A DNA stretch of 64,000 nucleotides. It comes from Friedmanniella luteola (GTDB taxonomy: Bacteria; Actinomycetota; Actinomycetes; Propionibacteriales; Propionibacteriaceae). The stretch lies in NCBI RefSeq assembly GCF_900105065.1, contig NZ_LT629749.1:3658001-3722000 (forward strand), written 5' to 3'. The notes under the pieces are model-generated. The model was not told the DNA's origin. It worked only from the letters and a program-made list of their open reading frames with translations, and made no database searches. Positions 22,865 through 27,223 of the stretch are shown here, in pieces. Numbering within the stretch: the stretch's first letter is position 1; the number at the start of each line of letters is the position of its first letter. The translations under genes were made by a program, and so were the position numbers.

Positions 22865-24141
<1,277 letters not shown>

Positions 24142-24145
<4 letters not shown>

Positions 24146-24262
24146 GCTCGCGCGGGGGCGCTCAGGACCCCGGCTGACGGAGCCCTGGGAAGACGACGAC
24201 GGACGTGTCGCCTTCCCGGGGCTGCGTCAGTCAGGCCCGCCCCCACCTCGACGCTCGCTCAC
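24142..24262 (-). repeat. ~120-bp hairpin repeat, left copy (inverted)
   Basis: Read on the minus strand it begins GTGAGCGAGCGTCGAGG and ends TGAGCGCCCCC-GCGCGAGCTCAC, with an internal imperfect 19-bp hairpin (24173-24229) of 19-base loop. It matches the right copy at 25364-25482 over most of its length; the first 17 and last 23 bases are identical. The two ends share an imperfect inverted repeat starting GTGAGC. It provides the TGA of citrate synthase and probably its terminator. Confidence 0.85.
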
Positions 24263-24297
24263 CGTGCTGGGCAATCCAGGGAAGGACTCTCGCTCCG

Positions 24298-25395
24298 GTG
24301 AAGGTGGTCTACAACAGCTTCAACGGCCGCTACGCCGACAACCCGCGCGCCGTCTTCGAGGGGCTGCGCCGGCTGCGTCCGGGGCTGGAGCACGTCTGGC
24401 TGGCCGACCCGCGGCACGCCGGCGGCTTCCCCGACGACGTGGCGACGGTGCCGATCCGCAGCCGGCGGGCGGTGGCGGCCCTGGAGCAGGCCGACGTGCT
24501 GGTGGCCAACTGCCACACCGACCTGGACCGCTGGACGAAGCGGCCCGAGCAGGTCTACCTGCAGACCTGGCACGGCACGCCGCTCAAGCGCATCCACCGC
24601 TCGGCCCTGCAGCAGCCCGACGCGGCGCTGATGGACGCGCTCGACGACGAGATCGAGCGGTGGGACCACCTGATCTCGCCCAGCCCGGCCGCCACCGACC
24701 TGCTGCGCTCCGCCTTCGGGTACCGCGGCGCGGTCCTGGAGACCGGCTACCCGCGCAACGACCTGCTGACCGGTCCGGGGGCGGCGGACCGCCGGGCCCG
24801 GGCCCGGGCCCGGCTCGGCCTGGCCGACGGCGTCACCGTGGTGCTCTGGGCCCCGACCTACCGCGACGACGACGTCGACGACGCCGACGTGCCGGACGGC
24901 CTCGACGCGGCGGCGCTCGCCGACCGGCTCGGCCCCGACGTCGTGGTGCTGCTGCGCCGCCACTACTACCTCGGCCACCGGTCCCCCGCCGTCGGCCACC
25001 CGCGGGTGCGGGACCTGAGCGACCACCCCGACATCGGCGAGCTGCACCTGGCCGCGGACGTGCTCGTCACCGACTACTCGTCCTCGATCTTCGACTTCGT
25101 CGTCACCGGTCGCCCCGTGGTCGTCTACGCCTACGACCTCGAGCACTTCCGCGACCGGCTGCGCGGCTTCACCCTCGACCTCGAGACGGAGCTGCCGGGT
25201 CCGGTGGTGCAGGACCAGGACGTGCTCGCCGACGTGCTGGCCGGGCTGCCGGACGTCCGGGCGGCCTGGTCCGAGCGCTACGCCGCCTTCCGCGAGCGCT
25301 TCTGCGCCCTGGAGGACGGCCGCGCCACCGAACGCGTCGTCGAGGCCCTCTGGCCCCACCCCCGTGAGCGAGCGTCGAGGGAGGCGCGGCCCTGA
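24298..25395 (+). CDS. CDP-glycerol:polyglycerophosphate glycerophosphotransferase-like protein
   Basis: About 365 residues. The GT-B fold typical of TagB/TagF enzymes is recognisable: LQTWHGTPLKRIH (HGT motif), SPSPAATDLLRSAFGY, ETGYPRNDLL, VLWAPTYRDD and the C-terminal VLVTDYSSSIFDFVVTGRPVVVYAYDLEHFRDRLRGF. Such enzymes add glycerol- or ribitol-phosphate units to teichoic-type surface polymers. The GTG at 24298 precedes KVVYNSFNGRY, the family opening; GGAAGGA lies upstream. The last ten residues (RERASREARP) are encoded by the right hairpin repeat, so the natural C-terminus seems to have been replaced. Acceptor unknown. Confidence 0.85.
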   Translation: MKVVYNSFNGRYADNPRAVFEGLRRLRPGLEHVWLADPRHAGGFPDDVATVPIRSRRAVAALEQADVLVANCHTDLDRWTKRPEQVYLQTWHGTPLKRIHRSALQQPDAALMDALDDEIERWDHLISPSPAATDLLRSAFGYRGAVLETGYPRNDLLTGPGAADRRARARARLGLADGVTVVLWAPTYRDDDVDDADVPDGLDAAALADRLGPDVVVLLRRHYYLGHRSPAVGHPRVRDLSDHPDIGELHLAADVLVTDYSSSIFDFVVTGRPVVVYAYDLEHFRDRLRGFTLDLETELPGPVVQDQDVLADVLAGLPDVRAAWSERYAAFRERFCALEDGRATERVVEALWPHPRERASREARP

Positions 25396-25482
25396 CTGAG
25401 GAGCCCCGGGGAGTCGACACGTTCTCCGTCGGCTCCCCGGGGCTCCTCAGTCAGGGTCATGAGCGCCCCCGCGCGAGCTCAC
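25364..25482 (+). repeat. ~120-bp hairpin repeat, right copy
   Basis: Begins GTGAGCGAGCGTCGAGG inside the preceding gene and ends GAGCTCAC. Its core is a perfect 24-bp inverted repeat (25390-25413 and 25433-25456) with a 19-base loop. It is inverted relative to the copy at 24142-24262. The strong hairpin probably terminates transcription from both sides. Confidence 0.88.
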
Positions 25483-25494
25483 CCAGATCAAGGG

Positions 25495-25517
25495 AGCGCG
25501 CCCCCGCGCGAGCTCAC
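25495..25517 (+). repeat. Partial third copy of the repeat terminus
   Basis: The GCGCCCCCGCGCGAGCTCAC end of the element recurs 35 bp after the right copy, just before the ABC-F stop codon. It looks like a duplicated terminus. Confidence 0.7.
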
Positions 25518-25522
25518 CCGGG

Positions 25523-27223
25523 TCAGGAGCGCACCCGCTCGACCCTCTTCTCGTCCCAGACGGGCTGGTCGGACTCGTAGACGCTGCCGTCGGCACCGAA
25601 GACGAGGAAGCGGTCGAACCCGCGGGCGAACCAGCGGTCGTGGGTGACGGCGACGACCGTGCCCTCGAACGCCGCCATGCCCTGCTCCAGCGCCTCGGCC
25701 GACTCGAGGTCGAGGTTGTCGGTCGGCTCGTCGAGCAGCAGCAGCGTCGCCCCGGACAGCTCCAGCAGCAGCACCTGGAAGCGGGCCTGCTGCCCGCCCG
25801 ACAGGGAGTCGAACCGCTGCTCGGCCGCCCCGGCCAGCTCGTAGCGGTCGAGCTTGCGCGAGGCGAGCTCGCGGCCCATCCCCTGCCGGCCCATCCCGTG
25901 GGGGGCGTCGTCGCCGCGGTGCAGGATCTCCAGCAGGGTCTTGCCGAGGAGCTCGGGGTGGTGGTGGGTCTGGGCGAACCAGCCGGGCCGGACGCGGGCG
26001 CCCAGCCGGGCGGTGCCGGTGTGGGCGACCGGCGCGATGTCCAGACCGCCGACCGGCTGGTGCTCCACGTCGGGGTCCGAGCCGCCGCGGGCCAGCAGCC
26101 GCAGGAAGTGCGACTTGCCGGAGCCGTTGGAGCCCAGCACCCCCACCCGGTCGCCGAACCAGATCTCGGCGCTGAACGGCTTCATCAGCCCGGTCAGCTC
26201 GAGGTCCTCCACGACGACGGCCCGCTTGCCGGTCCGGCCCCCGCTGAGCCGCATCGACAGCTTCTGCTCCAGCGGCACGGCCTCGGGCGGGCCGGCCTCC
26301 TCGAACTTGGCGAGCCGCGTCTGGGCCGCCTTGTAGCGGGACGCGAGGCCGTCGTTGAACTTGGCCTTGACCTTGTACATCTGCACCAGGTCGATGATCT
26401 TCTGGTGCTCCTCGTCCCAGCGCCGCCGGAGCTCCTCGAAGCGGGCGAACCGGGCCGTCCGGGCCGCGGCCAGGCCGGCGAAGCCCGAGCCGTGCACCCA
26501 GACGCTGTTGCCGGCGGCGCCCAGCTCGAGGACGGCGATCGTCGTCGCCGCCTGGGCCAGCAGCTCGCGGTCGTGGCTCACCAGCAGCACCGACTTCTGG
26601 GTGCTGGCCAGCTGGGCCTCGAGCCAGCGCTTGCCCGGCACGTCGAGGTAGTTGTCCGGCTCGTCGAGCAGGAGCACCTCGTCCGGGCCCCGCAGCAGCG
26701 CCTCCAGGGCGAGCCGCTTCTGCTCCCCGCCCGACAGGGTGCTGACCTCGCGCCAGCGGACCCGGTCGTAGGACGTGCCCAGCGCCGCGGTGCAGCAGGC
26801 GTCGAAGGTGACCTCGGCGTCGTAGCCGCCGGCGTCGGCGTAGTCCGCCAGCGCCTGGGCGTAGGCCATCTGGGTCGGCTCGCTGTCGTCCTCCATCAGC
26901 GCCAGCTCGAGGGTGTCGACGGCGGCGGCCGCCGCGCGCAGCCGCGGTGGCGAGAGGGAGATGAGGAGGTCGCGGACGGTGCTCTCGTCGCGGATCGAGC
27001 CGATGAACTGGCGCATGACGCCGAGGCCACCGCTGCGCGACACCGTGCCGCTGGTCGGCTGCAGGTCGCCGGCGATGATCCGCAGCAGCGTCGTCTTGCC
27101 CGAGCCGTTTGGTCCGACGAGCGCGACGACGGCGCCCTCCGCCACCCGGAACGAGACGTCGTCCAGCAGCACGCGGCCGTCCGGCAGGTGGTAGCCGACG
27201 GCCGACAGGTCGACGTGCCCCAT
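25523..27223 (-). CDS. ABC-F family ATPase (ribosome-associated type)
   Basis: A 566-residue protein with two ABC domains and no membrane segments. Domain 1: VGPNGSGKTTLLRIIAGD, STLSGGEQKRLALEALL, LLDEPDNYLD and VSHDRELL. Domain 2: LGSNGSGKSHFLRLLARG, DSLSGGQQARFQVLLLE, LLDEPTDNLD and VTHDRWFA. The linker between them (FARFEELRRRWDEEHQKIIDLVQMYKVKAKFN) has the charged helical P-site-tRNA-interaction character of ABC-F factors, which act on stalled or antibiotic-bound ribosomes. The exact subfamily cannot be set by eye. Upstream is a 15-bp palindrome overlapping a possible promoter. Confidence 0.9.
   Translation of the reverse strand: MGHVDLSAVGYHLPDGRVLLDDVSFRVAEGAVVALVGPNGSGKTTLLRIIAGDLQPTSGTVSRSGGLGVMRQFIGSIRDESTVRDLLISLSPPRLRAAAAAVDTLELALMEDDSEPTQMAYAQALADYADAGGYDAEVTFDACCTAALGTSYDRVRWREVSTLSGGEQKRLALEALLRGPDEVLLLDEPDNYLDVPGKRWLEAQLASTQKSVLLVSHDRELLAQAATTIAVLELGAAGNSVWVHGSGFAGLAAARTARFARFEELRRRWDEEHQKIIDLVQMYKVKAKFNDGLASRYKAAQTRLAKFEEAGPPEAVPLEQKLSMRLSGGRTGKRAVVVEDLELTGLMKPFSAEIWFGDRVGVLGSNGSGKSHFLRLLARGGSDPDVEHQPVGGLDIAPVAHTGTARLGARVRPGWFAQTHHHPELLGKTLLEILHRGDDAPHGMGRQGMGRELASRKLDRYELAGAAEQRFDSLSGGQQARFQVLLLELSGATLLLLDEPTDNLDLESAEALEQGMAAFEGTVVAVTHDRWFARGFDRFLVFGADGSVYESDQPVWDEKRVERVRS

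Follow-up and report, generated by a model that had tools for sequence, protein, structure and literature searches.

Two inverted hairpin elements around a transferase gene belong to a genus-restricted family of dispersed, structured repeats at gene ends

EFAR of Enterococcus and bcr1 of Bacillus cereus are dispersed, hairpin-forming repeats similar in size to the family described here; their hosts are unrelated to ours, and the likeness is one of general description. ERIC (RU-1, 127 bp) and YPAL (RU-2, ~168 bp) are known from Enterobacteriaceae and Yersinia, and an RU-1 repeat has been reported fused to the 3' end of a gene, where the normal stop codon is removed and residues and a new stop are added (PMC2759123, accessible sections). 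REPs of the GTAG and CGTC superfamilies are palindromes that follow coding regions and lie between genes of unidirectional or convergent orientation, and are plausibly transcribed RNA elements; the accessible part of the same text names EFAR and mentions untagged REP-like families in M. tuberculosis, and the word Actinobacteria does not occur in it (PMC3733652). Stem-loop repeats in 40 bacterial genomes have been grouped into 92 families, with 31 of the 41 intergenic ones predicted to be structured; Mycobacterium and Corynebacterium were among the genomes scanned, and Propionibacterium and Streptomyces do not appear in the accessible part of that text (PMC2267715).

The two elements of the locus studied here, termed L and R, belong to a family that resembles ERIC and YPAL in size, long hairpin fold and intergenic dispersal, and the gene-end fusion of RU-1 resembles the position of R. 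By contrast, the TA termini and TA target duplications of ERIC and YPAL are not seen in this family, and its shared loop, internal-loop motif and 3' hairpin are not mentioned for them in the accessible sections of PMC2759123. Dispersed hairpin repeats of ~100-170 bp at intergenic 3' ends, as in ERIC and YPAL, were found, a resemblance in kind. Like REPs, the family is placed downstream of genes, including in convergent gaps, yet its members span ~120 bp with up to four helices, whereas REPs measure 20-40 bp and carry a GTAG or CGTC tag (PMC3733652, accessible part). By eye, CGTC occurs inside the GAGCGTCG termini of one element subtype. The family also shares with those of PMC2267715, as far as its accessible text describes them, the character of structured intergenic repeats, a comparison by description rather than by sequence.

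The features of the locus, with genes assigned from open reading frames and Pfam, are given below in coordinates of the window, that is, the whole 64-kb stretch of DNA that was analysed. G000 denotes the genome it comes from, G022 the closest relative of that genome among those compared, and R1 a covariance model introduced further on.

22865-24145, (+) strand: citrate synthase gene (PF00285), the upstream neighbour, with a TGA stop overlapping the outer end of L
24142-24262, (-) strand, the strand of the ACACG loop: element L, a long hairpin; R1 score 39.7 bits
24196-24208, (-) strand: apical loop of L, ACACGTCCGTCGT, a variant of ACACGYTCTTCGT
24298-25395, (+) strand: CDP-glycerol:glycerophosphotransferase-like gene (PF04464), with its C-terminus and stop inside R
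25364-25482, (+) strand: element R, a 119-bp hairpin; R1 score 44.9 bits; in G000, not in G022
25417-25429, (+) strand: apical loop of R, ACACGTTCTCCGT
25498-25518, (-) strand: solo third terminus, matching the outer end of the elements at 21/21 bases
25523-27223, (-) strand: ATPase gene with two ABC_tran stretches (PF00005), convergent downstream neighbour

A first-pass annotation of this DNA had described two inverted ~120-bp elements on either side of the transferase gene, and the inverted-repeat arms are indeed found (24141-24190 with 25434-25483, and 24214-24271 with 25355-25412), L and R being identical at 103 of 121 positions (85%) in a global alignment. The 23 outer and 17 inner identical bases that it listed, together with the GTGAGC...GCTCAC ends, are all in the sequence; this 6-bp GTGAGC/GCTCAC pair stands at the ends of L and R, and other family members have other ends. 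Its hairpin is borne out by folding: both elements fold far better than dinucleotide shuffles, R on the + strand at -105.7 kcal/mol (z -11.7; opposite strand z -10.2) and L on the + strand at -83.3 kcal/mol (z -6.4; opposite strand z -6.1). Both represent a simple long-stem subtype that does not contain the GACGAC/GGAGGA internal loop of other members. The 21-base outer terminus has three exact copies in the window (24141, 25463 and 25498) and one with 3 mismatches, against 0.10 matches at <=3 mismatches expected from shuffles. The partial third terminus that had been suspected beyond R is real and lies in a 35-nt tandem repeat (25463-25497 / 25498-25532, 86%), in the latter of its two units; this unit extends to the stop of the ABC gene, and the tandem repeat as a whole (25463-25532) is perhaps the remnant of an older element.

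The two elements meet the adjoining coding sequences in different ways. The final ~10 residues of the transferase and its stop (ORF end 25395) are encoded within R, as had been proposed; the start of this gene is GTG according to the codon-usage script. The parallel statement that L provides the citrate synthase stop is correct in that L overlaps the stop at 24145, but it is overstated: citrate synthase is present in 19 of the 20 genus genomes, own included, and its alignment reaches residue 425 or 426 of 426 in 18 relatives, so L abuts a stop codon at its native place. The downstream ATPase gene, which we take to be of the ABC-F type, directly follows citrate synthase in five genus relatives, with no transferase and, by eye, no element between them. 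Among the 19 genomes with citrate synthase, only G000 and G022 have the transferase between it and the ABC gene, and in the remaining 12 neither the transferase nor the ABC gene was matched within the ~1.5 kb fetched beyond citrate synthase.

Beyond the locus, blastn of R against its own genome returned L, a tandem pair of copies near 414.7 kb and, at 1.636 Mb, weak fragments. The tips inspected share an apical loop, ACACGTTCTTCGT and close variants, set in stems of differing sequence. The covariance model R1 of this tip was derived from nine tips aligned ungapped, which were picked partly because they fold. It gave 39 matches at E<=10 in the own genome, of which 30 were inspected and 23 kept as members (L106 and L108-L113 were judged chance by eye), and the whole-genome comparison that had been recommended thereby reveals a dispersed element rather than a single-locus one. 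In G022, 42 of 45 matches were examined, and 18 of 24 loci from other genomes were used, L122 lying at a contig end and L124-L127 and L139 being chance by eye. The resulting set comprises 81 elements, from 83 after one variant loop and one identical sequence were left out.

The distribution of the family is narrow and uneven. Across the genus, R1 matched at E<=0.1 in 15 of 20 genomes, with 0 to 45 matches per genome; at least one real-looking element (by eye) is present in 12 of the 20, the matches in G004, G007 and G011 looking like chance. Under stricter filters, 13 of 147 genomes were positive at the family level (10 of them from the own genus) and 12 of 293 at the order level (8 from the own genus). 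Matches outside the genus were rejected where inspection by eye found the element architecture absent, namely L149-L151 at the family level and, among the four at the order level, L251 and L252; of the other two, G094 is L150 again and G560 is the fourth. An exact pattern scan of one genome per species (84,980 genomes) recovered eight stretches, three in Microlunatus flavus and five in Propionibacteriaceae MAGs, for which reason the genus can be termed Microlunatus-like; the exact family pattern had 0 matches in viral contigs. L and R are members of a genus-restricted, patchily distributed family in one Propionibacteriaceae genus. No description of this hairpin-repeat family was found in Rfam or the literature searched. 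At the gathering score, Rfam gave 0 matches in the window and four loci, and permissive matching over five loci gave 16 matches, all under gathering scores. Among known RNAs, F6 TB sRNA (RF01791) has a gathering score of 46; R reached 42.4 bits on one strand and 41.6 bits on the other, is not a member, and has only a general hairpin in common with this RNA.

Many members display a common architecture, built from an outer stem, a middle stem with a 3'-side bulge, an internal loop and an apical stem that carries the shared loop, as well as a small 3' hairpin. The 13-nt apical loop near ACACGYTCTTCGT is common to members, along with covarying stems. The small hairpin has the loop GAGCGGAGCGA, and its motif occurs within 2 mismatches in 55 of the 81 elements, where the stems include GTCC/GGAC (18), GCCC/GGGC (9) and GACC/GGTC (8). 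At <=1 mismatch, the internal loop places GACGAC opposite GGAGGA in 59 of 81 elements, 25 one way and 34 with the sides swapped, and is ambiguous or absent in 22; judging from the letters, this arrangement can form G.A/A.G mismatches alternating with C-G pairs. As a phylum-wide marker, the 3' hairpin was rejected: GNCCGAGCGGAGCGAGGNC occurred in 10 of 396 genomes (own included), and the 15 outside loci inspected had no ACACG loop by eye. Another actinobacterium (G256, locus L224) has clusters of GACC-GAGCGGAGCGA-GGTC repeats but lacks the remaining parts of the element.

In the nine tips, 88% of cells are paired, both partners vary in 10 of 12 apical pairs, and the covariation score is attained by 0 of 500 shuffles. 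A second alignment, of 14 full elements (out of the 81) that share one length class and need no gaps, has 97.1% of cells paired and two-sided changes in 13 of 30 pairs, with a score again attained by 0 of 500 shuffles; in the outer helix of the same 14 elements, which lies outside model R1, 6 of 9 pairs change on both sides. Template-switch repair can yield compensated stems in palindromes without selection, and it could be the source of part of the compensated changes in this family. The evidence on which strand is the functional one conflicts, since the apical and outer helices give opposite G.U answers: in the apical helix, G.U exceeds A.C by 31:5, favouring the ACACG strand, although model R1 may itself favour such counts, whereas in the outer stems the other strand is richer in G.U (88/1909 pairs vs 63/1996; 33 elements vs 20). 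Folding energy favours the ACACG strand in 72 of 80 elements, a preference that is not independent because members share loop motifs.

The position of the elements relative to genes was assessed for 65 elements of the own genome and G022, collapsed to 59 loci; gene calls came from a simple codon-usage script, so that single neighbour-gene orientations may be wrong. Convergent neighbours occur at 28 of 59 loci and divergent ones at 1 of 59. Of the 29 gene gaps in the window that measure 80 bp or more, 4 are convergent (Fisher p 0.002 against the loci) and 5 divergent (Fisher p 0.014). With the ACACG strand as plus, the neighbour orientations are -- 10, +- 7, ++ 6 and -+ 0 for the 23 own-genome elements, and +- 21, -- 14, ++ 5 and -+ 2 for the 42 G022 elements. 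In G022, the right-hand gene opposes the element in 35 of 42 cases, and its end lies 40-70 nt from the tip in 28 of these 35. This distance holds for only 8 of 17 elements in the own genome, where the elements further from a stop comprise the tandem array of five at 3.298 Mb and some single elements. At 6 of 18 own-genome loci, all of the -- type, the ACACG strand is antisense to both neighbours. There is no marked AT-rich stretch upstream of the elements that would indicate a promoter of their own; within 23900-25700, consensus searches found no promoter and 0 terminator-like sites or U-tracts, none at L or R.

Comparison with G022 separates the elements from the gene that they enclose. The G022 locus contains the transferase and a counterpart of L and is devoid of R, and its transferase frame continues towards the ABC gene, giving a different C-terminus; this answers two checks proposed in the first-pass annotation, on the presence of the block in relatives (five further relatives have no transferase in the interval) and on the native end of the transferase. 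The L counterpart in G022 has similar ends but a different, near-perfect stem and a different loop. L is 69% identical to it (interior 59%) and R 75% (interior 67%), while 19% of third codon positions differ between the two genomes in citrate synthase and 26% of them in the transferase; element interiors thus change fast. Local copying or homogenisation may account for the likeness of L and R. That R is closer to the G022 element than L is speaks against a simple recent copy of L, and, on the alignments, homogenisation or a fast-changing L would fit this pattern at least as well.

At the genome scale, G022 has an element at the matching place for 12 of the 18 own-genome loci (L itself, 9 loci where both flanking genes match and 2 where one does), indicating that most are older than the split between the two genomes. 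At 2 of the 9 both-flank loci, the element is turned around with respect to the genes. Conversely, two mutually inverted G022 elements, 1.4 kb apart, are both missing from a collinear stretch of G000; the 1.25 kb that they enclose, with two script gene calls, is present in G000 at 91% identity without any element, so an inverted pair can arise without carrying genes. No target duplication is visible at three present/absent sites between G000 and G022, where divergence would hide short ones. At site 1, the element-free G000 allele has 24 other nucleotides instead of a clean join. Near G000:C1:4244260 and 4245540 (L246), small GC hairpins follow the stop codon by eye where G022 has full elements.

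The reading that we consider probable is that L and R are members of a dispersed class of ~120-bp structured palindromic repeats of the REP/ERIC/YPAL kind, positioned at gene ends, often right after the stop codon, and probably serving as RNA hairpins, with the transferase as a bystander. What the computation shows is the family itself, its architecture and covariation, its position at 3' gene ends, its patchy occurrence, and the presence or absence of elements between related genomes. The gene-end position, the convergent enrichment and the covarying fold fit 3'-end hairpins that limit read-through or protect ends. To act, such a hairpin would need its strand in single form, for which RNA at the ends of transcripts is the likeliest case; there it may stop or insulate read-through between neighbouring, often convergent, genes and may shield 3' ends; the shared loop and the G.A-rich internal loop would suggest a binding partner. 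L and R would then have been made alike by local copying or homogenisation, next to a transferase that both G000 and G022 have between citrate synthase and the ABC gene and that would be a bystander. Weighing against this reading are the missing U-tract and AT-rich upstream stretch, the loose stop distance in the own genome, the own-genome -- loci with the ACACG strand antisense to both neighbours, and the conflicting strand evidence. A more far-reaching version seems doubtful to us: a mobile, stop-codon-abutting class of structured elements with an RNA or single-stranded DNA fold, a nearly fixed 13-nt loop and a side-exchangeable tandem G.A internal loop, putatively protein-bound, spreading without a Y1 transposase and replacing host terminators.

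Several other explanations can be weighed against the same observations. The first-pass annotation favoured a MITE or composite non-autonomous transposon, with L and R as its ends, that brought the surface-polymer gene into the locus. Inverted copies of 85% identity around a gene that five relatives lack between citrate synthase and the ABC gene, the 6-bp GTGAGC/GCTCAC termini and the presence or absence of elements between relatives would all suit it, but G022 has the gene with L only, and the second inverted pair in G022 surrounds a stretch that G000 possesses without either element. Since the gene and R are independent, the composite reading fails, and a composite transposon with the gene as cargo was rejected on the G022 locus. 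Nor is a target duplication visible at the three present/absent sites, and a Y1 (HUH) RAYT transposase (PF01797), the sole transposase family searched, was found in 0 of 20 genus genomes, with 5 of 14 control genomes positive, on which ground a REP/RAYT system was rejected as well; we regard a gene-carrying transposon as highly improbable. Movement of single elements, one by one and without gene cargo, by a putative enzyme favouring stop codons or terminator hairpins would be a different matter. It is a possible explanation, though one that we tend to disbelieve: the patchy counts of 0 to 45 matches per genome, the present/absent sites at collinear loci in both directions, the close abutment to stop codons in G022 and the tandem arrays with 135- and 164-bp spacing speak for it, whereas the 12 of 18 loci held in common with G022 and hence mostly older than the split, the unseen target duplication, the 24 other nucleotides at site 1 in place of a clean join, and the 0 exact family-pattern matches in viral contigs speak against it.

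Duplicated terminators, the alternative offered alongside the transposon in the earlier annotation, come closer as regards position, but leave the common loop and internal-loop motifs unexplained. In favour of ordinary intrinsic bidirectional terminators that resemble each other by chance are the strong hairpins at the ends of genes, with enrichment in convergent gaps, and the small GC hairpins that, by eye, element-free G000 alleles carry at the same spots. However, there is no T-run at L or R; a common 13-nt loop, an internal loop that can swap sides and a further covarying hairpin are not shared by ordinary terminators; and five of the 20 genus genomes are without a match, with three more having only chance-like matches. 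This explanation therefore appears unlikely. Chance GC-rich palindromes, for which one can say that hairpins are common in a GC-rich genome, are negligible in probability given the z scores of -6.4 for L and -11.7 for R, the 21-mer found three times exactly, and a covariation score that 0 of 500 shuffles reach.

REP/ERIC-like placement, a multi-helix architecture with covariation and an internal-loop motif found on either side come together in this family, a combination that makes it a test case for bacterial dispersed palindromes kept as RNA or DNA structures. R, in turn, is a case of a dispersed element altering a protein C-terminus between related species. Elsewhere in the own genome, five full elements, several of them near-identical, stand in tandem with 135-bp spacing at G000:C1:3298511-3299083 (L100, L101 and L103-L105). 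At positions 1150-1490 of L051 (G000:C1:414.6-415.0 kb), two near-identical tandem units carry elements 164 bp apart between same-direction genes, and the matching place in G022 yielded one element, turned around with respect to the genes. L238 and L243 (G000:C1:1202247 and 2454416) retain the outer stem and the 3' hairpin around a shrunken interior, and are apparently deletion derivatives of the element.
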